The translations under genes were made by a program, and so were the position numbers. The notes below the pieces were generated by a model that was not told the DNA's origin, searched no databases, and worked only from the letters and a program-made list of their open reading frames with translations. A stretch of 64,000 nucleotides of DNA from positions 219,001 through 283,000 of the forward strand of contig NZ_CP116413.1 of assembly GCF_030064675.1 (NCBI RefSeq). The letters run 5' to 3'. Below, in pieces: positions 20,344 to 52,878 of the stretch; position 1 is the stretch's first letter; every line of letters starts with the position of its first letter. Origin of the DNA: Crossiella sp. CA-258035. Lineage in GTDB: Bacteria; Actinomycetota; Actinomycetes; Mycobacteriales; Pseudonocardiaceae.

Positions 20344-21485
20344 CCGCCCCGGCCGAGACGACCACCGGAGTGTCCACTGTGGACGATGCTCTGGTCACGG
20401 TCGAGGGACTGAAGGTGCACTTCCCGATCAAGCGCGGGGTGGTGCTGGACCGCACGGTGGGCTACGTCTACGCGGTGGACGGCGTCGACCTCTCGGTGCG
20501 CCGCGGCGAGACCTACGGCCTGGTCGGCGAGTCCGGCTGCGGCAAGTCCACCTTCGGGCGGGCGCTGCTCAAGCTCACCCCGCCCACCGCGGGCAAGGTG
20601 GTCTTCGACGGCGTGGACCTGTCCTCGCTCAAGGGCGAGCCGCTGCGGCACATGCGCCGCCGGATGCAGATGATCTTCCAGGACCCGCTGTCCTCGCTGG
20701 ACCCCCGGCAGTCGGTGGAGTCGATCCTGGTGGAGGGTCTGCGCGCGCACAACCTGGACAAGGGCAAGGCGCAGACCAGCAAGCGGCTGCGCGACCTGCT
20801 CACCTCGGTCGGGCTGCCCAGCACCTCGCTGCGCAAGTACCCGCACGAGTTCTCCGGCGGGCAGCGGCAGCGCATCGGCATCGCCCGTGCGCTGACCGTG
20901 GAACCGGACCTGATCGTGGCCGATGAGCCGGTGTCCGCGCTGGACGTCTCGGTGCAGGCCCAGGTGGTCAACCTGCTGGAGGACCTGCAGGAGCAGCTCG
21001 GGCTCACCTACCTGGTGATCGCGCACGACCTGGCCGTGGTGCGGCACATCTCCGACCGGGTGGGCGTGATGTACCTGGGCGGACTGGTCGAGGAGGCCGG
21101 TTCGGACACCCTCTACGCCGACCCACAGCACCCGTACACCAGGGCGCTGCTGTCCGCGGTGCCGGTGCCGGACCCGCTGCTGGAGGACCGCCGCGAGCGG
21201 ATCCTGCTGGCCGGCGACCTGCCCTCGCCGGCCAACCCGCCCACCGGCTGCCGGTTCCACACCCGGTGCCCGTGGCGGCAGGCGACCCGCTGCGACACCG
21301 AGCGGCCGGTGCTCCGGGAGGTCGCGCCGGGCCACCGGGTGGCCTGCCACTACGCGGAGGACATCAAGGCCGGGCGGATCCGGCCGCACGAGGTCGAGGC
21401 GGAGCTGGTGCAGGCCGACGACGGCATCTCGCCGGACATCAGCCTGACCGGTCCGGCGTCGGTCACTGAGGTGCTCGGGCCGTAG
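20340..21485 (+). CDS. dppF: Peptide ABC transporter ATP-binding protein (DppF-like)
   Basis: 381-residue second ATPase of the importer. Walker A GESGCGKS (63-70), Q-loop [14 protein letters not shown], signature FSGGQRQR, Walker [14 protein letters not shown]-loop VIAHDLAVV. It also ends in the oligopeptide-type cysteine segment ([15 protein letters not shown]) plus an extra acidic tail of about 50 residues. Codons 12-15 (Ser-Thr-Val-Asp) carry one copy of the GTCCACTGTGGAC palindrome described under findings, with the otherwise uncommon ACT threonine codon. The ATG overlaps dppD by four bases. Confidence 0.94.
20372..20384 (+). repeat. Iterated palindrome copy 1
   Basis: GTCCACTGTGGAC, inside dppF. 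Exact 13-base palindrome about a central T. Confidence 0.6.
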
Positions 21486-21503
21486 CTCTGTCACCCTGTT
21501 CCC

Positions 21504-22154
21504 GTGCGATATCGGGCGCAGCGCGAGGCGATCGTGGCCACGTGCCGGCGACTGGTCGAACAGCGACTGGTCGTCGGCACGGCGGGCAACGTCAGCCTCC
21601 GGGTCGATGATCTTCTACTGGTCACCCCGAGCGGGGTCGACTACGACCAGCTCACCGCCGAGCAGGTCGGCCTGCACCGGCTGGACGGCAGGCCGGTCGA
21701 GGCGCCGCTGTCGCCGACCAGCGAGCTCCCCATGCACCAGGCGATCTACGCCGCCGGTGCCGCCAGGGCGATCGTGCACACCCACTCGGTGGCCGCGACC
21801 GCGCTGAGCTGCCTGGTCGAGGAGATCCCGCCGGTGCACTACTACCTGGGCATATTCGGCGGCGCGGTCCGGGTCGCGCCGTACGCGCCCTACGGCAGCC
21901 CCGCGCTGGCCGAGGCCACGGTGGCCGCGCTCCAGGGCTCCTCGGCCTGCCTGCTGGGCAACCACGGCGCGGTGACCGTGGCCGGCACCCTGGCGCACGC
22001 CTTCCGCCGGGCCGCCTACCTGGAGTGGCTGGCCGAGGTGGCGCTGCGGGTGCTCTCCAGCGGGGTCACGCCGCGGCTGCTCTTCGCCGAGGAGCTGGCC
22101 GAGGTGACGCCGCGGATCCAGGAGTACGGGCAGCACCCCGGCGAGGAGATCTGA
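21504..22154 (+). CDS. Class II aldolase/adducin family protein
   Basis: 216-residue zinc aldolase of the fuculose-phosphate aldolase / ribulose-phosphate epimerase fold. Seen: LVVGTAGNVSLR (substrate-phosphate loop), LVTPSGVDYDQL, SELPMHQAIYAA, the zinc ligands in VHTHSVAAT and a third His in LLGNHGAVTV. It probably cleaves or isomerises a short phosphorylated sugar or aldehyde; the substrate cannot be assigned. GTG 21504 lies 18 bases after dppF, so it may be read from the same message. Confidence 0.87.
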   Translation: MRYRAQREAIVATCRRLVEQRLVVGTAGNVSLRVDDLLLVTPSGVDYDQLTAEQVGLHRLDGRPVEAPLSPTSELPMHQAIYAAGAARAIVHTHSVAATALSCLVEEIPPVHYYLGIFGGAVRVAPYAPYGSPALAEATVAALQGSSACLLGNHGAVTVAGTLAHAFRRAAYLEWLAEVALRVLSSGVTPRLLFAEELAEVTPRIQEYGQHPGEEI

Positions 22155-22190
22155 CTCTTCCGGGCCAGGCTGAAGAGCATGTCCGGGGAC

Positions 22191-22802
22191 CTAGGCGACC
22201 AGGGCTTCCAGCGCCTCGCGCTCGAGCCGTTCGGCCTCGTCCGCGCGGCGCTGGGCCCGCCGGACCAGCAGCGCCACCATCAGGCTGAGCACCGCGGCCA
22301 TCGCGATGGACAGCAGCAGGCCGAGCACCGGGTCGGAGGTCAGGCGGCCGCCGGTGTAGCCCAGCAGCGAGGCGTAGGTGGCCCACAGCGCGGAGCCGAT
22401 CACCGCGGCCACGGTGAACCGGCGCGGGCCCATCCGGAAGGTGCCGGCCAGCATCGCGCCCGCGATGCCGCCGCCCGGCACGAACCTGGCCGCGACCAGC
22501 ACCGGCTCGCCGTGCTGCTCCAGCCGGGCGCGCACCCAGCGGACCGAGGCAGGCGTGCCGCCCTTGCGCCGCTCGAAGCGGTGCAGCGCGGGCGGGCCGA
22601 ACTTGTAGCCCACCCGGTAGTTGATCAGGTCGGAGATCAGGCAGCCGACCGCGGTCACCACGATCACCACCGGCAGGGAGAGCTGCCCGGACGCGGCGAG
22701 CAGTCCGGAGCTGATCACGAACGCCTCGGTGGGCGCCAGCGGAACGACCGCGACCACGAAGGTCGCCAGCAGCAGCAGCTCAGGCACAGCGGTGAAGTTC
22801 AC
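22191..22802 (-). CDS. DedA family membrane protein
   Basis: 203-residue integral membrane protein of the DedA/VTT family, implicated in lipid-carrier flipping and envelope homeostasis. Several hydrophobic helices; the family motif region reads AARFVPGGGIAGAMLAGTFRM (the F/R-x-x-P-G-G/R type), and an N-terminal acidic segment APTEAFVISSGLLAA. The C-terminus is a charged helix (RRAQRRADEAERLEREALEA). Start is GTG 22802. Confidence 0.87.
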   Translation of the reverse strand: MNFTAVPELLLLATFVVAVVPLAPTEAFVISSGLLAASGQLSLPVVIVVTAVGCLISDLINYRVGYKFGPPALHRFERRKGGTPASVRWVRARLEQHGEPVLVAARFVPGGGIAGAMLAGTFRMGPRRFTVAAVIGSALWATYASLLGYTGGRLTSDPVLGLLLSIAMAAVLSLMVALLVRRAQRRADEAERLEREALEALVA

Positions 22803-22872
22803 ATCTCGCCCAACGTAGGGAACACGGTCGTGGATCCGGTCTGGCCCGGTCCTTCAGTGACTCTTCAGCTGC

Positions 22873-23898
22873 TCAGCCCAGGTCGCGTCTGGCCCGGCGC
22901 AGCAGCCGCAGCACTGAGCGTTCGATGGTGTCGCGTGTTTCCGGCATGGTCAAATCGGTGCTCCTGATCCGCAGGACGGTCGGCCGGATGGTGAGACCGT
23001 GGTCATAGGCGTCGATGACGTGCGGATCGATGTAGGAGCGGCGGCAGACCGCGGGGGTGTTGCCGATCTCCTCGGCCACCTCCCGGACCATCCCGGCCAC
23101 CGCCCGCTTGCGACTGGTCTTGCTCGCCGGACGTTCCTCGGCGGCCAGTGCGGTGGCCGCCAGCACGGTGGCATTCCAGGTGCGCAGGTCCTTGGCGGAG
23201 AACCCGTCCCCGACCAGTTCGCGGAGGAACTCGTTGACCTCCTCGGCGCGCACGTTCCGCCAGCCGTCACCGTTGCGGTAGGCGAAGAGCTCCGGGTTGT
23301 CCTCCTCCCGCCGCAACAGCCCCCGCACCACGGAGAACGCCTGGTCATCGACCACCGAGACCTCCCGCTGCTGGCCGCTCTTGGCCAGGTAGCAGACGTG
23401 GATCCGGCCCTTGCGCAGCGCCACGTGCTCGCGCCGCAGGGTGGCCAGCCCGTAGCTGCCGTTCTCCTTGGCGTAGCTGTGCCCGCCGACCCGGAACGCG
23501 CCCAGCTCCAGCAGCCGCAGCGCCGCCGCCAGCACCCGCTCCCGGCCCAGTCCCGGCTGCTCGATGAACTCCGCGATCCGCGTCCGCGCCTTGGGCAGCC
23601 GGGCGGCCAGCCGGAGCACCCGGTCGAACTTCTCCGCGTCCCGGCGGGCGGTCCAGGCCGGGTGGTAGAGGTACTGCCGCCGCCCGGCCTCGTCCACCCC
23701 GACGGCCTGGATGTGGCCGTTGGGGTGTGGGCAGATCCACACCTCCCGCCAGGCCGGCGGGATCACCAGCTCCTTGATCCGGGTGAGGGCGGCGGCGTCC
23801 ACCGGTTCGCCGCGCGCGTCCAGGTAGCGGAACCCCCGGCCGTGCCTGGCCCTGGTGAGTCCCGCTGCCCCTGGGTCACTGCGCCGGAGCCTGGTCAC
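22873..23898 (-). CDS. DNA topoisomerase IB
   Basis: 341-residue poxvirus-type topoisomerase IB that relaxes supercoils by a 3'-phosphotyrosine intermediate. N-terminal domain begins YLDARGEPVDAAALTRIKEL; the catalytic core shows RVGGHSYAKENGSYGLATL (first catalytic Arg region), GKSGQ-like LAKSGQQREVSV with the general-acid Lys, LRTWNATVLAATAL, and the nucleophile in CRRSYIDPHVIDAY. Many actinobacteria carry this bacterial type I enzyme in addition to TopA and gyrase. Translation probably starts at GTG 23898. Confidence 0.93.
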   Translation of the reverse strand: MTRLRRSDPGAAGLTRARHGRGFRYLDARGEPVDAAALTRIKELVIPPAWREVWICPHPNGHIQAVGVDEAGRRQYLYHPAWTARRDAEKFDRVLRLAARLPKARTRIAEFIEQPGLGRERVLAAALRLLELGAFRVGGHSYAKENGSYGLATLRREHVALRKGRIHVCYLAKSGQQREVSVVDDQAFSVVRGLLRREEDNPELFAYRNGDGWRNVRAEEVNEFLRELVGDGFSAKDLRTWNATVLAATALAAEERPASKTSRKRAVAGMVREVAEEIGNTPAVCRRSYIDPHVIDAYDHGLTIRPTVLRIRSTDLTMPETRDTIERSVLRLLRRARRDLG

Positions 23899-23935
23899 CC
23901 GGAGCGGATACCCACTCCGCTCCGGGTGATGCGGC

Positions 23936-26300
<2,365 letters not shown>

Positions 26301-38580: not shown

Positions 38581-40407
38581 TCACCCGGCGGCCAGCACCT
38601 GCCTGGCGAAGTCGATCTCGGCCGCGGTCTGCCTGGTGGTCTCGGCGATCACCAGCGAGCCGTGGCCTGCGTTGTACCGGTAGACCCGGTACTCCGCGCC
38701 CCGCTCGGCCAGCCGGTCCAGGTAGTTCTCGATCTGCCGGATCGGGCAGCGCGGGTCGTTCTCCCCGGCCAGCACGAGCACCGGCGCGGTCACCTTGTCC
38801 ACGTAGGTGATCGGCGAGGACGCCTCGTAGCGCTCCGGCAGCTCCTCCGGCGAGCCGCCGAACAGCGCCCGGTCGTAGGCCCGCAGCGGCTCCATCTCGT
38901 CCTCGTAGGCGGCCACGTAGTCCGCCACCGGCACGCTGGCCACCCCGGCCGCCCACAGCTCGGGCTGGGTGCCCACGGCCAGCAGGGTCAGGAACCCGCC
39001 CCAGGAGCCACCCGCGACCACGCACTTGGCCGGGTCGGCCAGGCCGGAGCCCACCGCCCAGGCGTGCACCGCGGCCACGTCCTCCAGCTCGGTCAGGCCC
39101 GGCCTGCCCTCGATCGCGTCCCGCCACACCGAGCCGTAGCCGGTGGAGCCGCGGTAGTTGACGTGCACCACCGCGAACCCGGCGTCCACCCAGGCCGCGC
39201 GGTAGGCGGAGAACCGGTCCTCATCCGCCGAGTGCGGCCCGCCGTGCAGGTCGAACACGGTCGGGAACGGCCCCTCGCCCTCGGGCCGGGCCACCAGCGC
39301 GTGCACCGTGCCGCCGGGACCCTCCACGAACGCGTCGTCCAGCGGCACGCTCTCCGGGGCCCGCTCACCCTGCGGCTCCAGCAGCACCCGGTCCACGCCG
39401 TCCGGCCCGATCGCGCGCACCGCCGGCGGCTGACCGGAGAAGGACCAGGAGTACTCCACGGTGCCGTCCGGGCGCACCTCGGCCGAGCTGACCACGCCCC
39501 GAGCAGTGTCCACAGTGGACAGTTCGCCGGTGGTCAGGTCGTAGCGGTGCAGGGTGTTGCGGGCCTGGTAGGTGTGCGAGATCAGCAACGCGCTGCCGTC
39601 GGGGTACCAGTCGCCGACGATCTCACCCGGCAGGTCGATGCTCAGCTCGACCTCGGTGTCGGCCTCGACATCCCACAGCAGCAGCTCTTCCTTGCCGCGC
39701 CGTTCGTGCAGGATCAGCACCCGCTGGTCGCCGGGCACCGGGCTGAAGGCCAGCGCGTCCAGGCCCTTGCCCTTGCCGTCCCACTTCTCCGCCACCGTGC
39801 TGCCGTCGTCGGTGCGCAGCACGCGCAGCGCCGGGTGCCGGGAGTCGCCGTGCTCGGAGTGCGAGATGACCAGGAACGTCTCGTCCTTGGCCAGCGAGCC
39901 CACCCCGCCGTCGTGCTCGTTCTGGTACACGACCTCCGACGGCCCGCCGTCCCTGGAGATCCAGATGGTGGTGCCGTCGTCGGTCGCGGTGCCCAGGGCC
40001 ACCACCCGGTTGCCCAGGGCCAGCCCGGCCGGGTAGGCGTCCGGGGTGCCGGGCAGCGCGGGCACCGGCGCCGCGCCACCGCCGTAGGGCTCGCTGACCC
40101 AGTGGCCGAACTCGTCGCCGTCGGTGTCGGCGAACCACCAGATGTGCTCGCCGTCGGGGGTGAGCGTGGCGCTGGTGGTCCCGTTCTTGCGGTTGGTCAC
40201 CTGCCGGTGCGTGTCGCTGTCCCGGTCCCAGGCGTAGACCTCCCACACGCCGCCGAGGTTGGAGAGGTAGAGGCTGCGCTGCGGCGCGTCCTCGGCCCAG
40301 CCCGGCCGCGACACCCTGGGCGCCGCGAACCGGGCTCGCCACCTCGCCTCGGCCACCGGATCGGGGAAGAGCTGGTCGGGGACCTGTGCGGTCGGATGCT
40401 GGCTCAC
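38581..40407 (-). CDS. S9 family serine peptidase (acylaminoacyl-peptidase-like)
   Basis: 608-residue prolyl-oligopeptidase-type enzyme. Residues about 50-330 are a beta-propeller gate; the alpha/beta-hydrolase domain follows with the nucleophile in GGSWGGFLTLL, an acid in ENDPRCPIRQ and the histidine in NAGHGSLV. It cleaves short peptides, probably acylated or N-terminal substrates, in the cytosol. GTG 40407 follows TAGGAT by seven bases, so it is likely leaderless. Codons near residue 310 include a copy of the GTCCACTGTGGAC palindrome. Confidence 0.9.
   Translation of the reverse strand: MSQHPTAQVPDQLFPDPVAEARWRARFAAPRVSRPGWAEDAPQRSLYLSNLGGVWEVYAWDRDSDTHRQVTNRKNGTTSATLTPDGEHIWWFADTDGDEFGHWVSEPYGGGAAPVPALPGTPDAYPAGLALGNRVVALGTATDDGTTIWISRDGGPSEVVYQNEHDGGVGSLAKDETFLVISHSEHGDSRHPALRVLRTDDGSTVAEKWDGKGKGLDALAFSPVPGDQRVLILHERRGKEELLLWDVEADTEVELSIDLPGEIVGDWYPDGSALLISHTYQARNTLHRYDLTTGELSTVDTARGVVSSAEVRPDGTVEYSWSFSGQPPAVRAIGPDGVDRVLLEPQGERAPESVPLDDAFVEGPGGTVHALVARPEGEGPFPTVFDLHGGPHSADEDRFSAYRAAWVDAGFAVVHVNYRGSTGYGSVWRDAIEGRPGLTELEDVAAVHAWAVGSGLADPAKCVVAGGSWGGFLTLLAVGTQPELWAAGVASVPVADYVAAYEDEMEPLRAYDRALFGGSPEELPERYEASSPITYVDKVTAPVLVLAGENDPRCPIRQIENYLDRLAERGAEYRVYRYNAGHGSLVIAETTRQTAAEIDFARQVLAAG
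39508..39520 (-). repeat. Iterated palindrome copy 2
   Basis: Reads GTCCACTGTGGAC on the minus strand, inside the S9 peptidase gene, coding Ser-Thr-Val-Asp. Confidence 0.6.
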
Positions 40408-40427: not shown

Positions 40428-42779
40428 CTACTCCACGATGACGTCGGTCCGCAGCCCCGGCGCCTTCAGGATCTCCGTTCGCGTGAACCGCTCCGGCACC
40501 CAGCCCTTGCGCACGTACAGCTCGGTCTGGTCGAAGTGGTGCGGCGAGGTGGGGTCCGCCGCCTGCGAGTAGGTCAGCACGGTCTGCGTGCGCGGCCCGT
40601 TCTTGCCCAGCTGAACAGCCATGATGAAGCTGGACCCCATCTCAACCTTGCCGTACGTGCCGTCCGCCCCGAGCTTGGTGGTGGTCGGCTCGGTCACGTT
40701 GAAGCAGCCCTCGAAGCCGGTGCAGCCCTGGATCGGCAGCAGCTTGCGCGAGGGGATGTCCCGCTGCGCCTTGCCGAGCTCCAGCGTCAGCGGCAGGCCG
40801 AGCCCGGTCAGCCGCTGCACCCCGTCCGCGATGGCCGTCTTGACCTTGGGTTCGGCGGTGTTGAGCGTGTGCGGGGTGCGCACCGGGTCCTTCGGGTCGA
40901 ACGGCACCGCGAACTTGTTCCGCAGCGGCACGATCCCCGCGTAGACCTCCCGCCACAGCACCGAGCCTTGGCTGCCGGTGTCCATCTTCAGATCCCACTT
41001 GGCCAGCACCGCCCCGGCCGCGCGCACGTCCACCTGGGCGCCGTCGGAGGCGGTCAGCACCGGGTTGGCCTCGATCAGCCCGACCACCGCGTCCCGGAAC
41101 AGCTCACCGGTGAGCGTCCGGTTGCCCAGCATGGTCTGCTGCAGGCTCGGCAGGTCGAACCCGGCCGGACCGAACCCGTCCGTGCCGTTGCGCCGCTGCT
41201 CCACCATCAGGTGGGACAGCCGGTCCCGCGGCGAGCGGGGGCCCGCCTGCTCGCCGTACATCCGCGGGTAGCCGGTCAGCGGCGCGGTGGCGTTGGTCAG
41301 CCAGGCCGACTCGTTGGAGTTGTGCACGTAGTCCGCACGCTGCTGCGCGGGCTGCTGCTTCGGCCCGAACACCCCGGGCGTCACCGCGTCCGGGTCACTG
41401 CCCCAGCCGCACTCGGCCCGCGAGCCGTTGAGGATCACCCGGTGGGGATAGGCGGCCCGCCCCGCCGGGGTGTCCACGCATCGCTGGGCGTGCTCGTCGG
41501 TGACGTGCGGCACCAGCGAGGCGTCGGTGTAGTAGCTCTCGCCCTTGCTGTCCGCGGCGATGGTGTTGATGAACGGGGACCCCTGAACCCGGTGCAGCGC
41601 CGCCCGCACCCCGGCCACGTCCTTGGCCCGGCCCAGCGCCAGCTCCTGGTCCACCGCGCGCACGTTGTCCTCATTGGACCCGCGCACCGCGAAGGCCGAC
41701 CCGGCGGTCCACCCGTCGGCCAGCACCGGCCCGTACCGCGACCGGTACAGCACACGCTCCACAGTGGACAGCGCACCATCCGCGCCACGCACCTGGACCC
41801 GCACGGCCTGCCGGGTCATCGGCTCTGTTTTCCCGTCCACCACATAGGAAGTGGGGTCACCGGGCGCCAGCTCCAGCTCGAACAGGGTGAACCGCCTGGC
41901 GAAGGACACGGTGTGCGTCCACGCCATGGACTCGTTGTGCCCCATCGCGATCATCGGCAACCCGCTCAACGCCGCCCCGGCCACGTTGAGCTTGCCCGGC
42001 ACCGTCAATTGCGCCTGGTACAGCCGTTTCGGCCCGGCCCACGGGAAGTGCGGGTTGGCCAGCAACATCCCGCTGCCGTCCCGGGTCGCCGCCCGCCCCA
42101 GCCCCCACGCGTTGCTGCCCACCGGCTGCATCTCCGCAGCCGCGGGCACCCCCGGACTCCCTTGGCCCACAGGCGGTTTCGCGTTCGCGATCTGCCCGGC
42201 GAAGGAGGACACCCCGGTCAGCTGGCTGGTGTCGTAGACGTTGCGCCACACATCCAGCTCGGTCAGCGGCCGCACCCATCCCTTGCCCCGGCAGGTCGGA
42301 TCCGGCAACCGCTCCACCCCGGTCTCCCGCAACCGCCGGTTGAACCCGGCCACGTACCCGCGCACGGTCTCCCTGGCCTCCGCCGACGGCCCACCCGGCG
42401 CTGCCAGCAGCCGTTCCAGCCGCCCGGTGTCGTTGGACGCCCGGAAGTAGAGGTCGCTCTCCAGGTTGGTGAAGCTCCCGGCCCCGGTGTTCACCCGCCC
42501 ATCGGGCCCGAAGTGCGCCGCCCGCTCCCCGGCCAGCGTGGTCACGTAGTCCGCCATCAGGCACAGGTTGTCCTGCGCATAGGCGTAACCGAACCCGTAA
42601 CCCGCCGACCCCATGTCCACCCCGGTGATGTGCGGCACCCCGTACTCGGTCCGCTGGATCACCGCCGCATACCGCTGCCCATCCCGCAAAGCCAGCTCCG
42701 GTTCCGCCGACGCGGGCGTCACCAGCACGGTGCTCGCCAGCGCGGTGACAACCGCCCCCAGTACAAGTCCTCTTCGCAT
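40428..42779 (-). CDS. Secreted penicillin acylase family hydrolase
   Basis: 783-residue N-terminal nucleophile hydrolase of the penicillin amidase / acyl-homoserine lactone acylase family, made as one chain and cut in two. MRRGLVLGAVVTALASTVLV with TPASA/E is a secretion signal. The autocleavage and catalytic site is G221/Ser222 in PVGSNAWGLG; LANPHFPW and HNESMAWTHTVS follow as usual. Family members remove acyl groups from beta-lactams, AHLs or lipopeptides; the substrate here is not readable. ATG 42779 is chosen over GTG 42812 because it gives the cleaner signal peptide. It is separated by 20 bases from the S9 gene. Confidence 0.9.
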   Translation of the reverse strand: MRRGLVLGAVVTALASTVLVTPASAEPELALRDGQRYAAVIQRTEYGVPHITGVDMGSAGYGFGYAYAQDNLCLMADYVTTLAGERAAHFGPDGRVNTGAGSFTNLESDLYFRASNDTGRLERLLAAPGGPSAEARETVRGYVAGFNRRLRETGVERLPDPTCRGKGWVRPLTELDVWRNVYDTSQLTGVSSFAGQIANAKPPVGQGSPGVPAAAEMQPVGSNAWGLGRAATRDGSGMLLANPHFPWAGPKRLYQAQLTVPGKLNVAGAALSGLPMIAMGHNESMAWTHTVSFARRFTLFELELAPGDPTSYVVDGKTEPMTRQAVRVQVRGADGALSTVERVLYRSRYGPVLADGWTAGSAFAVRGSNEDNVRAVDQELALGRAKDVAGVRAALHRVQGSPFINTIAADSKGESYYTDASLVPHVTDEHAQRCVDTPAGRAAYPHRVILNGSRAECGWGSDPDAVTPGVFGPKQQPAQQRADYVHNSNESAWLTNATAPLTGYPRMYGEQAGPRSPRDRLSHLMVEQRRNGTDGFGPAGFDLPSLQQTMLGNRTLTGELFRDAVVGLIEANPVLTASDGAQVDVRAAGAVLAKWDLKMDTGSQGSVLWREVYAGIVPLRNKFAVPFDPKDPVRTPHTLNTAEPKVKTAIADGVQRLTGLGLPLTLELGKAQRDIPSRKLLPIQGCTGFEGCFNVTEPTTTKLGADGTYGKVEMGSSFIMAVQLGKNGPRTQTVLTYSQAADPTSPHHFDQTELYVRKGWVPERFTRTEILKAPGLRTDVIVE
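41758..41770 (-). repeat. Iterated palindrome copy 3 (one mismatch)
   Basis: Minus strand TGTCCACTGTGGA, flanked by G where the exact copies have C. Inside the penicillin acylase gene, coding Leu-Ser-Thr-Val-Glu. Confidence 0.5.
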
Positions 42780-44520: not shown

Positions 44521-44553
44521 AACGGGGTCCGTCCACTGTGGACGGACCCCGTT
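44521..44553 (+). terminator. Perfect 15-base-pair terminator after yqeY
   Basis: AACGGGGTCCGTCCA (44521-44535) and TGGACGGACCCCGTT (44539-44553) pair perfectly across CTG. Its core contains the GTCCACTGTGGAC palindrome (44531-44543). Followed by TTCCGCTTG. Serves yqeY and the convergent PBP. Confidence 0.85.
44531..44543 (+). repeat. Iterated palindrome copy 4
   Basis: GTCCACTGTGGAC exactly, here as the tip of a terminator hairpin rather than inside a gene. Confidence 0.6.
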
Positions 44554-44571: not shown

Positions 44572-47016
44572 TCAGCCGCCGCCGGTCGGCTCGACCGGAT
44601 CGATGGTGATGCCGCCGGTGGGCGGCGGTTCCGTCTCGCCGGGCGGCGGCTCGGTGGTGCCGGTGGGCGGCGGCACCACGCCGGTGCTCACCCACAGCGT
44701 GATCGTCTCCCCCGGCAGCGCCGCGCCGCGCGGGTTCTGCCCGATCACGGTGCCCTTGGGCTGAGCGCCGTTGCGGTTCTGGGTGGTCACCTTGTACCCG
44801 GCGGACTGGAGCTTCGAGGTGGCCTCGTTGACCATCATGCCCACCACGTTGGGCACCTTGGCCTCGTCGCCGCCGTTGAGGTAGCGCGGATCCGCGCCGG
44901 GCAGCTGCTGCACCGGCTGGTCGCCGTGGATGGCGCCCATCGCGTCGAACCAGGTCGGCGCGGACACCGAGGAGCCGAAGATGCCCCCGTTGGTGTTGCC
45001 GCCGCACAACCGGGGCGGGTTGCCCTTGCAGATCACCTGCGGCCGGTTGCCGTCGTTGAAGGTCAGCACCGCGCCGGCGTACTGCGGGGTGGCGCCGACG
45101 AACCCGGCGGACTTGTGGTCCTGGGTGGTGCCGGTCTTGCCCAGCATCGGCCGGTTCCACTCCTTGGGCCGCGCGCCGGCCGCGGTGCCGCCGGGCAGGT
45201 CGTCCTTGCTCAGCCCCTGCACCAGGCCGTTGGCCAGGCCCTCCGGCACCGCCTGCTCGCACGGGGCCTCGTTGAGCTGGAGCGGCTTGCCGTTGCGGTC
45301 CAGCACCTGCTCGATCGGGCTCGGCGGGCACCACACGCCGCCGCTGATCATCGTCGCGGACACGTTGGCCAGCTCCAGCGTGCTCACCGCGGCCGGGCCG
45401 AGGGTGAACGCGCCCTTGTTGTTGCGCCAGTAGTCCGACTGCGAGCGGTTCAGATCGTCCCGTTTGGACTTGGTGTCCGGCTTCACCCCGGCCACGTTGA
45501 GCTGCATGGTCTCCCGCAGCCCCAGCCTGCTGGCCATGTCGACCACCGGGCCCATGCCCACCCGCTCCTCCAGGATGACGAACCCGGTGTTCGGCGAGGT
45601 GGCCAGCGCGGTCTGCAGGGTCATCTGGGGCGGGTAGCTGTCCCCGGCGTTGCTCAGGCAGTACCAGCGCTCACCGCCACCGGCCGGTGGACAGCGGGTG
45701 GCACCGCCCTTGAACACCTTGGAGGTGTAGGAGGTCGGGGTGTCGATGGTGTTGTTGATGCCCATGCCGCGCTCCAGCGCCGCGGCGGCAGTGAAGATCT
45801 TGTAGATCGAGCCCGCGCCGAACTTGTTCGCCGCCGCGCTGGGCAGCGCGTAGGTGGTCTGCCCCTTGTCCTGGTCCAGGCCGTAGTCCCGGTTGGCCAC
45901 CAGGGCCAGCACCTTGTGCTTGTCCTTGCCCGGCTGCACCACCGCCATCGTGTTGGCCACCCCGTTGGCGTCCTTGGGCACCCGGCCCTGCACCGCCTTC
46001 TTCGAGGCCTGGGTGACCCTGGGGTCCAGGGTCGTCCTGATGGTGAAACCGCCGCGCTTCAACGTGTCCTCGGAGTAGCCGATCTTGGCCAGGTAGTCGA
46101 TGACGTACTTGCAGAAGAACCCGTTGTCCGGGCCGGCGCCGATGCAGCCGTAGGGCGGGTTGCGGAAGTCCGGGGTGGTGCCCAGCGGCTCCTTCTTGGC
46201 CGTCTCGGCCACGTCCACCGGGATCCGGCCCTGCCGCCCCATCTCGCCGATCACCAGGTTCCGCCTGGTCAGCGCGGCCTCGGGGTTGCGCTTGGGGTTC
46301 AGGCCGCTGGGCTCGTTGACCATGCCGGCCAGCAGCGCGGCCTGGGCGATGGTGAGCTTGTCCGGGGTGGTGTCGAAGTAGGTCTTGGCCGCCGCGGCCA
46401 CCCCGTAGGTGCTCGCGCCGAAGGGCACGATGTTGAGGTACCTGGTGAGGATCTCGTCCTTGGTGAGCTTGCGCTCCAGTTGCAGCGCGATGCGCATCTC
46501 GCGCAGCTTGCGGGCCGGGGTCTGCTCCTGCGCCTTGGCCTGCTCGACCTTGTTCGTGGCCACCACGTGCATCAGGTAGTTCTTCACGTACTGCTGGGTG
46601 AGGGTCGAGCCACCCTGGGCGACCTTGCCCTCCACCGTGTTGGTCACCAGCGCGCGCATCGCGCCGCGCCAGTCCACGCCCTCGTGGTCGTAGAAGCGCT
46701 GGTCCTCAATGGACACGATCGCGGCCTTCATGGTGTCCGCGATCTTCTCCGGCCCGGCGAGCACCCGGTACTGGTCGAACAGGTAGGCGATCTGGTTGCC
46801 CTGGGCGTCGAGCACGGTGGTCAGCAGTGGCGGGTCCTTCTGGACCAGGTCCGAGGAGATGCTGTCGACTGTGTCACTAGCGCGGTTGGAGACCACCCCC
46901 AGCGCGCCCACCGCAGGGAACAGCATGCCGGCGAGTAGCACTCCAGCCAGCACACATAGCCCCAACAACTTGACCAAAGCCGCCCGCACGCCCACGCGGG
47001 ACAGCGTACGCTTCAC
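44572..47016 (-). CDS. Class A penicillin-binding protein (PonA2-like) with PASTA domain
   Basis: 814-residue bifunctional cell-wall synthase. One N-terminal membrane helix (about 12-43), a glycosyltransferase domain with catalytic Glu104 in VSIEDQRFYDHEGVDW and GGSTLTQQ, then a transpeptidase domain: S403-x-x-K in GAGSIYKIF (less usual Ile-Tyr in place of Thr-Phe), SPN (ATSPNTGF) and KTG (MLGKTGTTQ, about 640). A PASTA segment near 730-785 (KVPNVVGMMVNEATSKLQSA) and a Pro/Thr/Gly tail finish the chain. It polymerises and cross-links peptidoglycan outside the membrane. The gene next to WhiB and metallophosphoesterase matches ponA2 of M. tuberculosis. Confidence 0.94.
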   Translation of the reverse strand: MKRTLSRVGVRAALVKLLGLCVLAGVLLAGMLFPAVGALGVVSNRASDTVDSISSDLVQKDPPLLTTVLDAQGNQIAYLFDQYRVLAGPEKIADTMKAAIVSIEDQRFYDHEGVDWRGAMRALVTNTVEGKVAQGGSTLTQQYVKNYLMHVVATNKVEQAKAQEQTPARKLREMRIALQLERKLTKDEILTRYLNIVPFGASTYGVAAAAKTYFDTTPDKLTIAQAALLAGMVNEPSGLNPKRNPEAALTRRNLVIGEMGRQGRIPVDVAETAKKEPLGTTPDFRNPPYGCIGAGPDNGFFCKYVIDYLAKIGYSEDTLKRGGFTIRTTLDPRVTQASKKAVQGRVPKDANGVANTMAVVQPGKDKHKVLALVANRDYGLDQDKGQTTYALPSAAANKFGAGSIYKIFTAAAALERGMGINNTIDTPTSYTSKVFKGGATRCPPAGGGERWYCLSNAGDSYPPQMTLQTALATSPNTGFVILEERVGMGPVVDMASRLGLRETMQLNVAGVKPDTKSKRDDLNRSQSDYWRNNKGAFTLGPAAVSTLELANVSATMISGGVWCPPSPIEQVLDRNGKPLQLNEAPCEQAVPEGLANGLVQGLSKDDLPGGTAAGARPKEWNRPMLGKTGTTQDHKSAGFVGATPQYAGAVLTFNDGNRPQVICKGNPPRLCGGNTNGGIFGSSVSAPTWFDAMGAIHGDQPVQQLPGADPRYLNGGDEAKVPNVVGMMVNEATSKLQSAGYKVTTQNRNGAQPKGTVIGQNPRGAALPGETITLWVSTGVVPPPTGTTEPPPGETEPPPTGGITIDPVEPTGGG

Positions 47017-47080
47017 CCATTTTGGTGACCCGATTCACACACTTTCGAGTGCTGGGATGTAACGGGTAGGCAAACCCGTC

Positions 47081-47109
47081 TTGGACCTGGAACCAGAACC
47101 CTCTACAGT
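47081..47109 (+). promoter_or_regulatory. Sigma-A-type promoter of the WhiB gene
   Basis: TTGGAC (47081-47086), a 17-base spacer and TACAGT (47104-47109) form a near-consensus promoter. The leader to the ATG at 47230 is about 114 bases, unlike the many leaderless genes here, leaving room for post-transcriptional control. CTGGAACCAG within the spacer is a short palindrome. Confidence 0.7.
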
Positions 47110-47229
47110 CCGTCAACGTCGAACGACAGCACACCGGCGGGTGCGCCACTCCCGTGGCACACCTCATGCGGACCTCGGAGCTGGGGAGCACCGAGCGTAG
47201 TCGCGACGACGCGTAGGAGCTGGGGGAAC

Positions 47230-47556: not shown

Positions 47557-47590
47557 TCGTCTCCCGGTACGCCGGTCACCGACCCTCCAG

Positions 47591-48730
47591 TCACCGACCG
47601 GCCAGCCGGGCGCCGATCTCACGCAGTCCGTCGATGTCGTGCACATCGGCGGGCAGTGCGGGCACCCCGATCATCGCCACGCCCGGGTGAGCCTTGGTGA
47701 AGCGAGCGAGCAGCCTTCGCTCACGCTCCGCTACGGCCACCCGGTCCGCGTGCAACCGCAGCACGGCCGCGGCCAGCGGCGCCGAACCGGCGCGTTCGAG
47801 GTCCTCGGCCGCGGCGAGCGCGCGCGAGGCGGGCAGGTCGGCGAACACCGGGTGGGTCCGGTTGGCGACCAACCCGGCCAGTGGCATGCCCTCACCGGCC
47901 AGCCGGTCCACGAAGTAGGAGGCCTCGCGCAGCGCGTCCGGCTCCGGCGCGGCCACCACCAGGAACGCGGTGCCCGGCGAGCGGAGCAGCTCGTAGGTGG
48001 CCTGCGCGCGCTGCCGGAAGCCGCCGAACATGCTGTCGAAGGCCTGCACGAACGCCGAGGCGTCGTTGAGCAGCTGCCCGCCGATGATCGTCGAGATCAC
48101 CTTGGTGAACAGCCCGAAACCCGCGCCGACCAGCCGCCGGATGCCCCGCCCACCGGCGCGGGCCGGCGCGGACAACATCCGGATGATCTTGCCGTCGAGC
48201 ACCGTGGACAGCCGCTGCGGCGCGTCCAGGAAGTCCAGCGCGGACCGGCTCGGCGGGGTGTCCACCACCACCAGGTCCCACTCGCCGGTGTGCGCCAGCT
48301 GCCCCAGCTTCTCCATCGCCATGTACTCCTGCGTGCCGGAGAACGAGGAGGAGATGGTCTGGTAGAAGGGGTTGCGCAGGATCTGCTCGGCCCGGTCCGG
48401 CCCGGCGTGGGAGAGCACCATCTCGTCGAAGGTGCGCCGCATGTCCAGCATCATCGCGTGCAGCGAGCCCTCCGTCCCTTCCGGACGGTCCACCACGGTC
48501 ACCTCGCGCGGGTGGTTGCCCAGCTCGGTCAGGCCGAGGGACTGGGCCAGCCTGCGCGCCGGGTCGATGGTGAGCACCACGGTGCGGCGGCCGCGCTCGG
48601 CCGCGCGCAGGGCCAGCGCCGCCGCGGTGGTGGTCTTGCCGACCCCGCCGGAGCCGCAGCACACCACCACCTTGGTCTGCGCGTCGTCCAGCAGGTCGTC
48701 GATGTCCAGCAACGGCGGACGGGCGTTCAC
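47591..48730 (-). CDS. Get3/ArsA-like ATPase B (Rv3680-like)
   Basis: 379-residue deviant-Walker ATPase of the ArsA/Get3 family. The P-loop is GSGGVGKT (26-33): the position of the second, signature lysine is Ser27, so the usual intermonomer contact is missing. [16 protein letters not shown] is the switch-like strand, [20 protein letters not shown] the Walker B region. It forms a pair with the next gene; the mycobacterial pair Rv3679-Rv3680 is reported to assemble together and affect glycerol and nitric-oxide resistance. Start GTG 48730 overlaps the partner stop as GTGA. Confidence 0.88.
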
Positions 48731-49719
48731 CGGACCCCCTGCTCGATCAGCAGCTCGCTCAGCTCGTACAGCCCCGCGGTGTCCACCCCGTCGGTGAGGT
48801 CGGGCAGCTCGACCACGGGCAGGTCCACCTCGGCCAGCTGGTTGCGGGCGCTCAGCTCGGCCCGCACCCGGATCGCGTGCTCCACCGTCTCGTCCACCAG
48901 CCCGTCCACAATGGCCTCGTCCAGGTTCAGACCGGCCGAGAGCAGCCCCGACTTGATCCGGGCCGCGTCCACCCGGCCACCGGCCGCGGCGCCCACCGAG
49001 CGCGCGGGCAGCCGGGGCGGGCGCACCCTGTTCATGATCACCGCGCCGGGCCGCAGGTCGGCGGCGTCCAGCTCGCCGACCGCGTCCATGGTCTCCCGCA
49101 CCGGCATCTCCTCCAGCAGGGTCACCAGGTGCACCGCGGTGTCCCCGGAGTGCAGCAGCCGGATCACGCCCTCGCTCTGGTTGCGGATCGGGCCGACCTT
49201 GGCCAGATCGGCCATCGCCCTGGTCACGTCCAGGAACTTGACCACCCGGCCGGTCGGCGGCGCGTCCACCACCACCGCGTCGTACTCGTGCCGCCCGCGC
49301 TCGCCGGTGCGGCCGACGCACTCCTTGATCTTGCCGGTGAGCAGCACGTCCCGCAGACCGGGCGCGAGTGTGGTGGCGAACTCCACCGCGCCCATCCGGC
49401 GCAGCGTCCGCCCGGCGAAACCCAGGTTGTAGAACATGGACAGGTACTCCAGCAGCGCCGCCTCGGCGTCCACCGCCAGCGCCCGCACCTCGCCGCCGCC
49501 GGGCGCGGCCGCGATCCGCTCCTCGGAGTAGGGCAGCGGCGCGTGGTCGAAGACCTGGGCGATGCCCTGCCTGCCCTCCACCTCCACCAGCAGCACCCGC
49601 CGCCCGCCGGTGGCCAGCGCGAGCGCCAGCGCGGCGGCGATCGTGGTCTTGCCGGTGCCGCCCTTGCCGGTGACTATGTGCAACCGGGCGCGGCTGAGCT
49701 CCTCGGTCCAGGCCATCAC
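48727..49719 (-). CDS. Get3/ArsA-like ATPase A (Rv3679-like)
   Basis: 330-residue deviant-Walker ATPase. The P-loop GKGGTGKTT (18-26) keeps the signature Lys19 in addition to Lys24, unlike its partner. [35 protein letters not shown] and the tail segment NRVRPPR follow. The homologous mycobacterial pair is related to Get3, which delivers tail-anchored proteins to membranes. GTG 49719 follows TAGGCT by seven bases (leaderless). Read as an operon with ATPase B. Confidence 0.9.
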
Positions 49720-49758
49720 AGTGATCAGCCTAGGTCGGCGGGCGCGCGCGTGCGGCTT

Positions 49759-50010
49759 CTAGCCCGCGAGCATGAGGAAAAGCACGGCGATGGCCTCGGC
49801 GGCCACCAGCGCCCAGGCCCAGGTGGAGGGCAGCGCGAAGGCCACCAGCAGGGCCAGCCCGGCGACCACCGCCACCGAGATCAGCCCGGCCTGCACCACG
49901 GCCGCGTGCGTGGTCCGCTTCCGGTCCCTGACCTGCGCCATGGCGACCAGGGTGAGGATGAGTCCGCCCACGATGAACAGGACGGTCGCGGTGATGCGCC
50001 AAGTCTCCAC
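49759..50010 (-). CDS. Small membrane protein
   Basis: 83-residue protein with three hydrophobic segments (about 5-24, 36-58 and 62-82) separated by a basic loop (RDRKRTTHA). No family recognised. GTG 50010 follows TACCGT by six bases. It lies between the ATPase operon and the divergent DUF4177 gene; both transcripts appear to be leaderless. Confidence 0.75.
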   Translation of the reverse strand: METWRITATVLFIVGGLILTLVAMAQVRDRKRTTHAAVVQAGLISVAVVAGLALLVAFALPSTWAWALVAAEAIAVLFLMLAG

Positions 50011-50064
50011 GCGATCACGGTATCCGGTCGGGCAACCGAACCACCCGCAACTAGGCTCTTGGCC

Positions 50065-50223
50065 ATGACGAAGTGGGAGTACGCCACGGTTCCGCTGCTG
50101 ACCCACGCGACCAAGCAGATCCTCGACCAGTGGGGCGAGGACGGCTGGGAGCTGGTGTCGGTGCAGCCGGGACCCACCGGTGAGCAGCTGATCGCCTTCC
50201 TGAAGCGCCCGAAGGGCAACTGA
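50065..50223 (+). CDS. DUF4177 small protein (Rv3678A-like)
   Basis: 52-residue protein MTKWEYATVPLLTHATKQIL... with the family pattern W-E-Y, GWELVSVQPG. Function unknown. It is followed after two bases by RidA, as in M. tuberculosis. TAGGCT ends seven bases before ATG 50065. Confidence 0.88.
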   Translation: MTKWEYATVPLLTHATKQILDQWGEDGWELVSVQPGPTGEQLIAFLKRPKGN

Positions 50224-50225
50224 GC

Positions 50226-50684
50226 ATGGCCGGCTGGAAGCAGCGACTGGTCGAACTGGGCATCGAGCTGCCCGCGGTGGCCGCCCCGGTGGCCGCCTAC
50301 GTGCCTGCCGTGCGCAGCGGTCAGCATGTCTACACCTCGGGCCAGCTGCCCATGGTGGCCGGCGCGCTGGCCGCGACCGGCAAGGTCGGCGCCGAGGTCA
50401 GCCCGGAGGAGGCCAAGCGGCACGCGCGCACCTGCGTGCTCAACGGCCTGGCCGCCATCGACGCGCTGGTCGGGCTGGACTCGATCGCCCAGGTGGTCAA
50501 GGTGGTCGGCTACGTTGCCTCCGCGGACGGCTTCACCGGCCAGCCCGCGGTGATCAACGGGGCCTCCGAGCTGCTCGGCGAGGTCTTCGGCGAGGCCGGG
50601 GTGCACGCACGGGCCGCGGTCGGGGTGTCCGAGCTGCCGCTCGGCGCGCCGGTCGAGGTCGAACTGATCGTCGAGATCGCCTGA
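50226..50684 (+). CDS. RidA-family imine deaminase (Rv3678c-like)
   Basis: 152-residue trimeric RidA/YjgF-type protein that hydrolyses reactive enamine/imine products of PLP enzymes. [20 protein letters not shown], the Gly-Gln-Leu loop, [20 protein letters not shown], and the C-terminal VELIVEIA strand are present. The canonical arginine that binds the substrate carboxylate is not obvious because the C-terminal block differs from E. coli RidA ([15 protein letters not shown]), typical of the archaeal-type/Rid6-7 subgroup. ATG 50226 follows the previous stop directly. Confidence 0.88.
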
Positions 50685-50690
50685 TCCGCT

Positions 50691-50720
50691 GACCCGCCGC
50701 CACCGGTGTGGCGGCGGGTC
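50691..50720 (+). terminator. Bidirectional terminator between ridA and TPR gene
   Basis: GACCCGCCGCCAC (50691-50703) pairs perfectly with GTGGCGGCGGGTC (50708-50720), loop CGGT. Confidence 0.85.
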
Positions 50721-50726
50721 CCCACC

Positions 50727-51971
50727 TCAGCCCGGCAGCGCGGCCAGCGCGTCCACCAGCGCGGACCGCTGCTCCTTGGCCAGCAGCCGGTAGGGCCGGG
50801 CGGCCATCCGGTCCGCGCGGGTGTCGATCCGCTGCTTCACCGGGTCCTCGCCGGACAGCTCGGCCGCCTGTGCCGCGCTGAGCCCCTCCGCGCCGGCCGC
50901 CGCGGTGTGCGTGTCCACCCGGTGGTAGCGCAGCGCGCACAGCCCGTCGACCAGCCGGGCCGGCGCCGTGCGCGCCGAGCGGGCGCCCACCCAGGCGTCG
51001 AAGGCCGCACCGTCGGAGGTGCCGACCGCGCCGCCCACCACCAGCTCCACCAGGGACAGCGCGAGCTCCGGCTCCGGCCACAGCCTGGCCGCGGTCCGGT
51101 CCACCACCTCCACCACCTCGCGCAGCATCGCCACGCACCGCGGCGCGGCCAGCACCGCCCGGCCCTGCCGGCACAGCCAGCCCTGCGCGGCCAGCTCGTC
51201 CAGCACCGCCTCCAGGTCCGGGGTCCGCGGGTGCACCGCGTGCGCCACCGGCAGCAGCACCGGCCCGGACAGCAGCAGGGTGCGCAGCTCCAGCAGCAGC
51301 TCCCCGCCGTCGGGCAGCCCGTGCTCGGCGGTCACCGCGGCCCCGCCGCCCGCGGCCGCGGCCTGGTAGATCGCGGTGAGCAGCCGGTTCAGCTGCCGGT
51401 GCACCGCCCGCGCGGTGAGCACCGAGTCGGTGGCCTCCCAGGCCCACAGCTGCGGGTCGCCCGGCTCGGCCCCGCCGCCGCGCAGCCGCAGCGCGGTGGC
51501 GAAGCAGTGCCGGGCCGCGGCCCACTCGCCCGCGTCGTAGTAGCACTGCCCGGCGTGCTGGAAGATGAAGTGGAAGTGCGTGCCCAGCTCCGGCGTGCGG
51601 CTGCCGTCGACCAGGCAGCGGTCGAACTCGGCCATCGCCTCGGCGAAGCGGCCCTGCCACTGGAACACGTGCGCCAGCCTGCTGCGCGCCAGCACCTCCG
51701 AGGCGGCCGGACCGTGCTCCTCGGCCAGCCGCAGCGCGGTGGACAGGTGCCGCTCGGCCAGGTCGAGACGGCGCAGGATGCGCGCGGCCACCCCGATCAT
51801 GGTGTGGTGCTGGCGGGCCACCGCCGGGTTGCCCGGCACCGGCTGCGCGGCGGCCCGGTCCAGCCAGGCGGTCAGCGCGGCCGGGTCGTCCGAGCGTTCC
51901 CACAGGGTTTCCGGGTCGATGTGGTAGGCGAACAGCGGGCTCGCCATCGGGTCTGTCGGTTGTGCCGTCAC
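50727..51971 (-). CDS. TPR-like protein of unknown function
   Basis: 414-residue mostly helical protein, rich in Ala, Leu and Arg. Repeated amphipathic units ([40 protein letters not shown]) with about 34-residue spacing suggest tetratricopeptide repeats. ADL/LLS stretches and a C-terminal [16 protein letters not shown] follow. No catalytic motif. The start GTG 51971 is four bases after the oxidoreductase stop, so the pair is probably co-transcribed. It may be a scaffold or regulator; no known family was recognised. Confidence 0.78.
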
Positions 51972-51975
51972 GGTC

Positions 51976-52878
51976 TCAGGCGACCCACCCGGCGCGGCCG
52001 ACGATGTCGTCGAGCACCCGTTGCAGGTGCAGTCCCCTGCGCACGTCGCACGGGTGTTCGGTGGCACCGCAGTCGATCAGCGCCAGGAACTCGTCCAGCA
52101 GCGCGGTGAAGCAGTCCTGCGCGCTGAACTCGCCGCCGCCCAGCGCCCGGTGCCCGTGCTGCCCGTAGACCGCGATGTCGACCACGCTGGGCTGGATCGG
52201 CAGCCGCAGGGACAGGGTGAGCGTGCTGCTCGCGCCGCCCTGGTGGCCGAGTACCAGGTGGCACAGGTCGTCCTGGCCGCGGTGCGCGGCGATGACCTGC
52301 TCGACCGGGCCGAGTGCGGCGTCCAGCAGGTCGATGGCGTGCGGGCCGATGTCCAGCACCGCGCCGTCGGTCTGCCGCCACGGCGAGGCCGAGTAGGGGC
52401 CGCCGAGCACCGCGCCGGTCAGCCAGCGCACCGAGCCACCGGTCCAGCCGCCCAGCCGGTGCAGCTCGGCCAGCCAGTCGCGGACCTCGGGGGAGTAGCG
52501 CCGGGTGAGCAGCAGCAGCGAGGCCAGCCCGCGCCCGGTCACCTCCTCGGTCAGCCGCCGGGCCTGCTCCACGTTGCCCGCCAACGGCTTCTCCAGGATC
52601 AGGTGCTTGCCCGCCCTGGCCGCCTGGAGCGCCAGCTCGCCCTGCACCGCCGGTGGCACCGCGAACGCGACAGCGTCCACAGTGGACAGAAGTTCGTCGA
52701 AGGAGTCCGCGGTCCGCGCGCCGTGCGGCTCGGCGAGCTCCTTGGCCGCCGCCCGCCGCCGGGCCCACACCGCGGCCAGCCGGGTGCCAGGGTGATCCGC
52801 GATTCCTGGCGCGTGCACGGCCCGCGCCCATGGACCCGCGCCGACCAAGCCGATCTTCAGCTGTTCGTCCACGGGCAC
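51976..52878 (-). CDS. Gfo/Idh/MocA family oxidoreductase
   Basis: 300-residue NAD(P)-dependent dehydrogenase. Rossmann loop GLVGAGPWARAVHAPGI, conserved EKPLAGNVEQARRLTEE (catalytic Lys) and a C-terminal domain with DIGPHAIDLLDAALGPVEQV, where His is the catalytic base. Substrates of the family are sugars or inositols; not assignable here. A copy of the GTCCACTGTGGAC palindrome lies near its N-terminal coding part. It is followed by the TPR gene. Confidence 0.88.
   Translation of the reverse strand: MPVDEQLKIGLVGAGPWARAVHAPGIADHPGTRLAAVWARRRAAAKELAEPHGARTADSFDELLSTVDAVAFAVPPAVQGELALQAARAGKHLILEKPLAGNVEQARRLTEEVTGRGLASLLLLTRRYSPEVRDWLAELHRLGGWTGGSVRWLTGAVLGGPYSASPWRQTDGAVLDIGPHAIDLLDAALGPVEQVIAAHRGQDDLCHLVLGHQGGASSTLTLSLRLPIQPSVVDIAVYGQHGHRALGGGEFSAQDCFTALLDEFLALIDCGATEHPCDVRRGLHLQRVLDDIVGRAGWVA
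52675..52687 (-). repeat. Iterated palindrome copy 5
   Basis: GTCCACTGTGGAC on the minus strand, inside the oxidoreductase gene, coding Ser-Thr-Val-Asp. Confidence 0.6.

Follow-up and report, generated by a model that had tools for sequence, protein, structure and literature searches.

An iterated, A/T-centred gapped dyad in genomes of the Pseudonocardiaceae: predicted binding site of a dimeric DNA-binding protein

Only a small number of DNA words have been reported that recur in their hundreds within bacterial genes. Short chromosome-spread sites for organising proteins, i.e., matS/MatP, Noc and SlmA sites and KOPS (FtsK-orienting polar sequences), are regional or polar in their placement, and matS is a 13-bp gapped dyad; neither DNA uptake sequences nor Chi sites have the form of a gapped dyad, and Chi sites are polar. 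HIP1 (highly iterated palindrome 1; GCGATCGC) of cyanobacteria is an ungapped 8-mer linked to methyltransferases, and DNA uptake sequences and Chi sites are other classes of over-represented dispersed words (PMC4390886, accessible part of the article). In Streptomyces, the nucleoid-associated protein Gbn binds GATCWT at thousands of places (PMC9239103, accessible part of the article). Here we describe the palindrome GTCCACTGTGGAC, first noticed in a 64-kb window of the chromosome of Crossiella sp. CA-258035 (contig NZ_CP116413.1, positions 219,001 to 283,000; "the window" denotes this whole stretch), and the gapped dyad GTCC-N5-GGAC to which it belongs.

Like HIP1, whose purpose is still debated, the word is a highly iterated and lineage-limited palindrome (PMC4390886, same part); what sets it apart is its gapped form, in which the arms of the dyad flank a graded and A/T-rich spacer, its occurrence in Actinomycetota and its lack of a link to C5 methylases. 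The likeness to Gbn lies in an actinobacterial helix-turn-helix protein with >2,800 bound regions, although the Gbn word is a different one and is described, in the accessible part of PMC9239103, in terms of binding and not as a word over-represented 1000-fold. DNA uptake sequences and Chi sites share with the dyad that they are over-represented, dispersed words, whereas, unlike matS/MatP, Noc and SlmA sites and KOPS, the dyad has no polarity and is neither confined to nor excluded from the terminus half of the chromosome. In the literature searched, which lacked most subscription papers, we found no bacterial paper among the matches listed for the word, its core or its gapped form (by title, these were medical, animal, plant or virus papers), and none on iterated palindromes in Actinobacteria or over-represented palindromes in Pseudonocardiaceae. 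On the sequence features set out below, we predict, with confidence a little better than even, that GTCC-(A/T-rich N5)-GGAC is a genome-wide binding site of a symmetric dimeric protein of the Pseudonocardiaceae that recognises double-stranded DNA sequence-specifically.

The exact word GTCCACTGTGGAC occurs 460 times in the 9,170,171-base chromosome (218 forward and 242 reverse copies), as compared to 0 copies of a reverse-read control. A 2.064-Mb sample, consisting of 100 pieces of 20 kb and the window, contained 131 copies against 0.13 expected under an order-4 Markov model. The preliminary description of the window had judged chance recurrence unlikely and proposed a genome-wide count against a Markov model; at approx. 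1000 times the order-4 expectation, recurrence is indeed far beyond chance. Expected numbers were 0.04 to 0.6 for Markov orders 1 to 5, 2.8 for order 6 and 35 for order 7, the last of which is high, we think, because the sub-words are themselves enriched; chance and composition can thus be ruled out as the source of the word up to order 6. Exact copies also outnumbered one-mismatch neighbours at every position, the most frequent neighbours being GTCCATTGTGGAC (21 copies) and GTCCAATGTGGAC (9 copies). Seven of the 100 sampled pieces had been placed from known copy positions, four of these on a visibly site-rich stretch; all seven were excluded from the dispersion count and the four from the origin-to-terminus and gene-length counts, and the seven were retained in the Markov, gap-scan, spacer, coding-frame and half-site counts. 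Genes in the sample were predicted with a simple custom caller. As regards duplication, 43 of the 342 sites with A/T-rich spacers (defined below) had a partner with similar flanks, and the exact sites flagged in this way were often in megasynthase genes or close pairs. Overall, these data confirm that the word is iterated in a dispersed manner throughout the genome; as in HIP1-type elements, a palindrome is many-fold over-represented genome-wide and lies largely within genes.

The preliminary description took the 13-mer as the unit, and this part of it has to be replaced, as the real unit is GTCC-N5-GGAC with an A/T-rich spacer. A scan for GTCC-N(k)-GGAC with k from 0 to 15 found 471 sites at k = 5 (approx. 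92 expected) and 31 to 140 at each of the other 15 gaps. The excess resides mainly in sites with at least three A/T in the spacer (342 observed versus approx. 11 expected; "A/T-rich sites" hereafter), and 351 of the 471 sites have a central A or T. When all 4+4 dyads with gaps of 0 to 10 were ranked, an A/T-rich spacer being demanded from gap 3 upwards, GTCC-N5-GGAC ranked first both in the Crossiella DNA and in 671 kb of Amycolatopsis DNA. The unit is therefore a gapped dyad with a variable spacer, rather than the core GCGATCGC or an ungapped alternate of HIP1. Extrapolation from the sample gives approx. 1300 to 1700 such dyads in this chromosome, or approx. one per 5.5 to 7 kb. A reading of the word as a DnaA box, based on the core GTCCACA, was set aside since T-centred and GAAGT-type sites lack this core.

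Within A/T-centred sites, the counts for pairs of inner dinucleotides follow the product of half-site weights (r = 0.94; 0.90 without the AC-AC pair), with observed and predicted numbers of 131 and 127.8 for AC-AC, 53 and 51.0 for AC-GA, and 25 and 20.4 for AC-AT. Enrichment of half-sites over expectation was 99 to 145 fold for AA, AC, AT, TT and TA, 49 fold for GA and <16 fold for the rest. The exact 13-mer is the commonest spelling of the dyad in this coding genome of 71-72% G+C; in our reading, it owes this frequency to AC being the half-site most readily accommodated in G+C-rich coding DNA. By this count-based fit, as distinct from a binding measurement, the dyad behaves as two independent half-sites at a fixed distance, as expected for the site of a dimer. 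Taken together, the fixed spacing, symmetry, half-site independence and A/T centre, along with the spacer turnover between constant arms and the absence of polarity reported below, argue for a protein that contacts double-stranded DNA as a dimer.

The DNA word, rather than the peptide that it encodes, is what is retained, as the preliminary description had suggested from codon choice. Among the 131 exact sites, 119 lie within called genes (coding fraction of the sample, 0.886) and 12 outside, a location unlike the intergenic one of REP/BIME elements (repetitive extragenic palindromes and bacterial interspersed mosaic elements). The frame G|TCC ACW GTG GAC is used by 100 of the 119 coding copies, with 13 and 6 copies in the other two frames; presumably this frame is preferred because the DNA demand costs the least protein change there. 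The tetrapeptide STVD consequently occurs 118 times as compared to 8.2 expected (approx. 14-fold), 100 times by way of the palindrome, while five permutations of STVD occur 4 to 8 times each against the same expectation of 8.2. SEVD, SDVD, SIVD, SFVD and VHSG are also raised, the majority of each through a dyad word. Selection for the peptide was therefore rejected, as the STVD excess is owed to the palindrome and the permutations are not raised. ACT is rare in our gene calls, as noted previously (1.95% of Thr codons; ACA, 1.47%), and it is not used wherever STVD is encoded: the Thr codons of the 18 STVD occurrences outside the palindrome are ACG (6), ACT (5), ACC (4) and ACA (3), i.e., ACG or ACC in 10 of 18.

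For analyses of chromosomal layout, position 0 was taken as the origin on the basis of parS near 9.166 Mb, with the terminus assumed to lie opposite. Close to the best ParB match (9164311-9164586) and to two exact parS sites is an exact dyad (G000:C1:9162723; L130), with the further partial copy GTCCACTGTGGACGATCACAGTGGACC shortly after it. Enrichment by strand, a test that the preliminary description had asked for, was absent: the T-centres of exact sites divide into 65 leading and 66 lagging, and asymmetric sites into 78 leading and 86 lagging. There is thus no strand bias along the replichores of the kind that characterizes KOPS and Chi. An apparent polarity at 1.19-2.98 Mb, where only forward copies were seen among the matches listed, was discarded since a reverse copy was found there in the sample (L054) and the full test was flat. 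Relative to genes, the perfect half GTCCAC of asymmetric dyads is antisense in 92 cases and sense in 58 (P = 0.007), which may be an amino-acid effect. From origin to terminus, the density per 20 kb in successive fifths was 2.07, 2.60, 3.06, 3.94 and 3.18; with sites in all fifths, the confinement to the terminus seen for matS/MatP does not apply. Spacing was near random and slightly clumped (mean 2.90, variance 4.00 per 20 kb; 94 pieces).

Longer genes are denser in sites, the values increasing from 1.02 to 3.20 per 10 kb. Genes of >1500 amino acids carry 3.20 sites per 10 kb, compared to 1.40 for genes of 200-400 amino acids (four site-rich pieces excluded). Exact dyads are dense at 2.35-2.39 and 2.43-2.47 Mb (L083-L086), in very large genes that resemble, by eye, those for polyketide synthase and nonribosomal peptide synthetase megasynthases; their density is due partly to module duplication. 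Intergenic DNA between tandem and convergent genes holds 1.38 and 1.80 sites per 10 kb, respectively, and divergent intergenic DNA holds 4 sites versus 12 expected at the coding rate, i.e., there is no preference for promoters. Three of 28 intergenic A/T-rich sites extend by at least 10 further pairs on each side and thus form hairpins. The location of the bulk of exact sites in genes (119/131), together with the depletion of divergent intergenic DNA, indicates that the sites are not promoter operators, and argues against a classical regulator. We give a very small chance to an explanation by a conventional transcription factor operator that has numerous decoys, or by codon or peptide effects: the site is dimer-like and 100 of the 119 coding copies share one frame, as such an explanation would have it, but it is at odds with the depletion of divergent intergenic DNA, with the excess of STVD (118) over its permutations (4-8, against 8.2 expected) and with the 19 coding copies in the two other frames and the 12 copies outside called genes.

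In the window, the following sites and associated features were recorded, and their fate in two congeners (G055 and G016) is given where the two were compared site by site.

7545-7557, strand not given: variant site GTCCTTTGTGGAC, encoding SFVD; same word in G055, GTCCTTCGTGGAC in G016
20372-20384, plus strand: exact site GTCCACTGTGGAC, encoding VSTVD near the N-terminus of a dppF-type ABC (ATP-binding cassette) ATPase gene (20340-21485, plus strand); exact in G055, GTCCACTGTGGAG in G016
39508-39520, minus strand: exact site GTCCACTGTGGAC in an S9 peptidase gene, encoding STVD; exact in G055 and G016
41667-41679, strand not given: variant site GTCCTCATTGGAC, with four A/T in the spacer, in a penicillin amidase gene; identical word in G055, broken in G016
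41757-41769, minus strand: one-mismatch copy GTCCACTGTGGAG in the penicillin amidase gene
44521-44553, strand not given: perfect 33-nt inverted repeat between convergent genes, reaching 10 bp past the site at 44531-44543 on each side
44531-44543, plus strand: exact site GTCCACTGTGGAC, noncoding, at a hairpin tip; centre flipped from T to A in G016, with the dyad still intact
45457-45469, strand not given: variant site GTCCCGTTTGGAC in a penicillin-binding-protein gene; dyad kept in G055 as GTCCCTTTTGGAC, broken in G016
46702-46714, strand not given: variant site GTCCTCAATGGAC, sharing the penicillin-binding-protein gene with the site at 45457-45469; unchanged in both congeners
52675-52687, minus strand: exact site GTCCACTGTGGAC in a GFO/IDH/MocA oxidoreductase gene, encoding STVD; exact in G055 and G016

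The four exact copies lie where the preliminary description had placed them, and none of 100 dinucleotide shuffles of the window contained any copy. Its one-mismatch copy exists as well, one base to the left of the position claimed and on the minus strand. The gene contexts that it had assigned (dppF, S9 peptidase, penicillin acylase and oxidoreductase) were also found here, the product of the first being an ABC transporter ATPase with an oligo_HPY domain, and the three exact coding copies encode Ser-Thr-Val-Asp with ACT on the coding strand. The copy described as the tip of a terminator does cap a perfect inverted repeat between convergent genes, which is a terminator-like hairpin.

For one protein encoded in the window, the closest relatives bearing a name came from Crossiella (98% and 94% identity). 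Conservation was assessed by aligning Crossiella segments between 195 and 410 kb with G055 (90.5% identity) and G016 (84.4% identity). In each congener, 8 of 10 exact sites were alignable; intact sites numbered 8/8 in G055 and 7/8 in G016, as compared to 9737/24649 (39.5%) and 5415/24317 (22.3%) of random 13-mers, respectively. The single exact site lost in G016 is the window copy at 20372. Non-exact A/T-rich sites were still sites in 6 of 7 aligned cases in G055 and in 4 of 8 in G016. In the S9-peptidase gene of Amycolatopsis (33 loci), the arms of one site are both intact in 31 loci and its centre is A or T in all 33; its four arm wobble columns are conserved at 0.97-1.00, as compared to a mean of 0.776 for wobble columns of the gene, while the residues encoded by the spacer vary. 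Two further sites in the same gene are kept less often (20/33 and 8/33).

The exact word is present in 249 of 297 genomes of the family (the Crossiella genome included), copy numbers across the set being 0 to 640, and the genera carrying it include Amycolatopsis, Crossiella, Lentzea and Kutzneria. In a phylum-wide set of 396 genomes (again including Crossiella), 19 have the exact word, the other 18 with 1 or 2 copies each; none of the 395 genomes from outside the family has more than 2 copies. Among the genomes searched, the word is thus restricted to Pseudonocardiaceae. The degenerate form GTCCACWNNGGAC, counted as the sum of both strands so that exact copies count twice, occurs 199 to 2178 times in each genome behind 47 of 80 named loci (reverse-read control, 0 to 14), 1 to 320 times in 29 family genomes picked as poor and 0 to 17 times in 13 genomes from other families. 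The richest genome (G008) is that of Herbihabitans rhizosphaerae (L187, G698), as matched by equal word counts. One genome (G294, genus g16) is an outlier with 6 exact copies versus 84 to 225 in the other listed genomes of its genus, possibly through loss or misplacement. A locus titled Rhodococcus rhodnii (L248) belongs to a 12.4-Mb genome with 40 exact copies, as in Pseudonocardiaceae, and is perhaps mislabelled.

Candidate partner proteins were compared between 12 rich and 12 poor genomes, picked by copy number. More than one match to PF02195 (ParB) was found in 3 of the 12 rich genomes (Crossiella with a weak second match, G055 and G019) and in 5 of the 12 poor ones, with a single match in G008; a ParB paralogue of the Noc type is thus not associated with the sites in this set. 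PF00145 (C5 methylase) had matches in equal numbers of rich and poor genomes (7 of 12 each), with no match in Crossiella, G008, G034, G193 and G047, so that a C5 methylase as cognate partner is not associated with copy number either. These results bear on the possibility that the dyad is a HIP1-like word made and kept by methylation- or repair-coupled bias, with no fitness role for each site. The dyad is highly iterated, palindromic and mostly coding, with 0 to 640 copies across the family, much like HIP1 (PMC4390886, accessible part), and some viral contigs carry it, as would be expected if the bias affected any DNA residing in the cell. The C5 family, the only one compared, nevertheless fails to track the sites, and a methylase word would not be expected to take the form of a gapped dyad whose spacer is graded and half-site-independent; we regard such a bias as unlikely, though as deserving some weight. 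Of the classes offered by the preliminary description, a HIP1-like palindrome and a site of a DNA-organising protein were a fair choice; a restriction-modification word is not favoured, given a spacer that is graded and A/T-rich instead of free, and given that C5 methylases, the family compared, do not track the sites.

Viral contigs were found by scanning for the exact word plus one base, so every contig already holds at least one exact copy. At least 237 viral loci are among the matches listed, and 184 of the 237 have only one GTCCNNWNNGGAC site. We examined 19 records behind 20 of the most site-rich loci, all chosen for having sites. The numbers of GTCCNNWNNGGAC sites were 26 in 68.6 kb (G740), 24 in 48.9 kb (G742) and 16 in 40.5 kb (G744), with 0 control matches in all three; the poorest of the 19 records had 3 in 60.5 kb, and 5 of the 19 had one control match. 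Eleven of these preselected records equal or exceed the approx. 17 GTCCNNWNNGGAC sites per 100 kb of the Crossiella sample. G740 is a tailed phage (portal, head protease, major head protein and tape measure); a 20-kb piece of it contains nine GTCC-N5-GGAC dyads, seven with at least three A/T and most with spacers known from the Crossiella sample, and its tape-measure gene holds three of the nine. G744 carries a terminase with relatives of 46-52% identity in five family genomes (23 of 200 had any match), and the terminase of a Thermobifida phage is just as close (50.6%). Seven named actinophage pieces from other hosts contained 1 site in 209.9 kb.

A Chi-like function is one way to read the phage data. 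Here, a protein on the dyad would act as a roadblock that halts a nuclease or translocase and so spares tagged DNA, and phages would copy the tag. Both the extrapolated density of approx. one site per 5.5 to 7 kb and the 38 to 49 GTCCNNWNNGGAC sites per 100 kb in G740, G744 and the presumed viral contig G742, versus approx. 17 in the Crossiella sample, would suit such a tag. However, known Chi sites are polar, the asymmetric dyads are unpolarised (78 leading/86 lagging) and two 20-kb pieces flanking terminase matches in family genomes hold 3 A/T-rich sites in 40 kb; judged from these sequence counts, a tag of this kind seems quite unlikely. A related and similarly speculative idea is that the dyad marks residence across the family. 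A dimeric protein would coat thousands of chromosomal dyads and shield or channel the DNA, e.g., by blocking the path of a nuclease or by loading a DNA-tracking enzyme; phages of these hosts would have adopted the mark in genes of their own, a tape-measure gene included, to pass as resident. The dyad might alternatively be the uptake sequence of a natural transformation system, given that it is dispersed in coding DNA, lineage-specific and sometimes part of a hairpin (3/28 intergenic A/T-rich sites), but it is dense in the tailed phage G740 and known uptake words are unlike a symmetric gapped dyad with free letters; we give this minimal credence.

We return to a binding site for a dimeric protein as the favoured interpretation. 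Each subunit would read GTCC and the next two bases, the A/T-rich middle would favour binding through its shape, and the sites, spread through genes without polarity, would be kept by selection on the DNA itself. The protein may have a role in packaging the chromosome, or may halt or receive a DNA-tracking enzyme at the dyad; as sites are also found in some viral contigs, this role may extend to any replicon in these cells. Several observations weigh against this interpretation. The dyad ranks only fourth in Lentzea loci and falls outside the best eight in Actinokineospora loci, and the half-site fit uses 16 free weights (136 cells). Retention is incomplete in G016, where half of the aligned non-exact A/T-rich sites (4/8) and one aligned exact site (1/8) are lost. 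The Amycolatopsis site has at least three A/T in its spacer in just 22 of 33 loci, and 36% of all wobble columns in that gene reach at least 0.9, so single columns are not striking. The near-random, slightly clumped spacing means that no architecture is visible in the layout, and repair or conversion bias instead of selection could be the source of the enrichment.

The dyad word reshapes protein sequence, to the extent that one tetrapeptide is 14 times commoner than expected, in Pseudonocardiaceae, a family known for antibiotics. Its dyad form means that a binding protein should be findable by pull-down, which would make the function of iterated words testable, and the dyad might also help to predict the hosts of uncultured phages.

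A second iterated repeat was also observed in the Crossiella chromosome; no copy was found in the window when up to 2 mismatches were allowed. It consists of GTGTTGGCCGTTGTCGTAC plus 3 bases in tandem steps of 22 bp, often opposite an inverted copy approx. 30-110 bp away, as at L047 (G000:C1:1116973-1117080) and L117 (6910061-6910168). Its core 13-mer occurs 42 times in 2.06 Mb and never in a called gene, which makes it REP/BIME-like.

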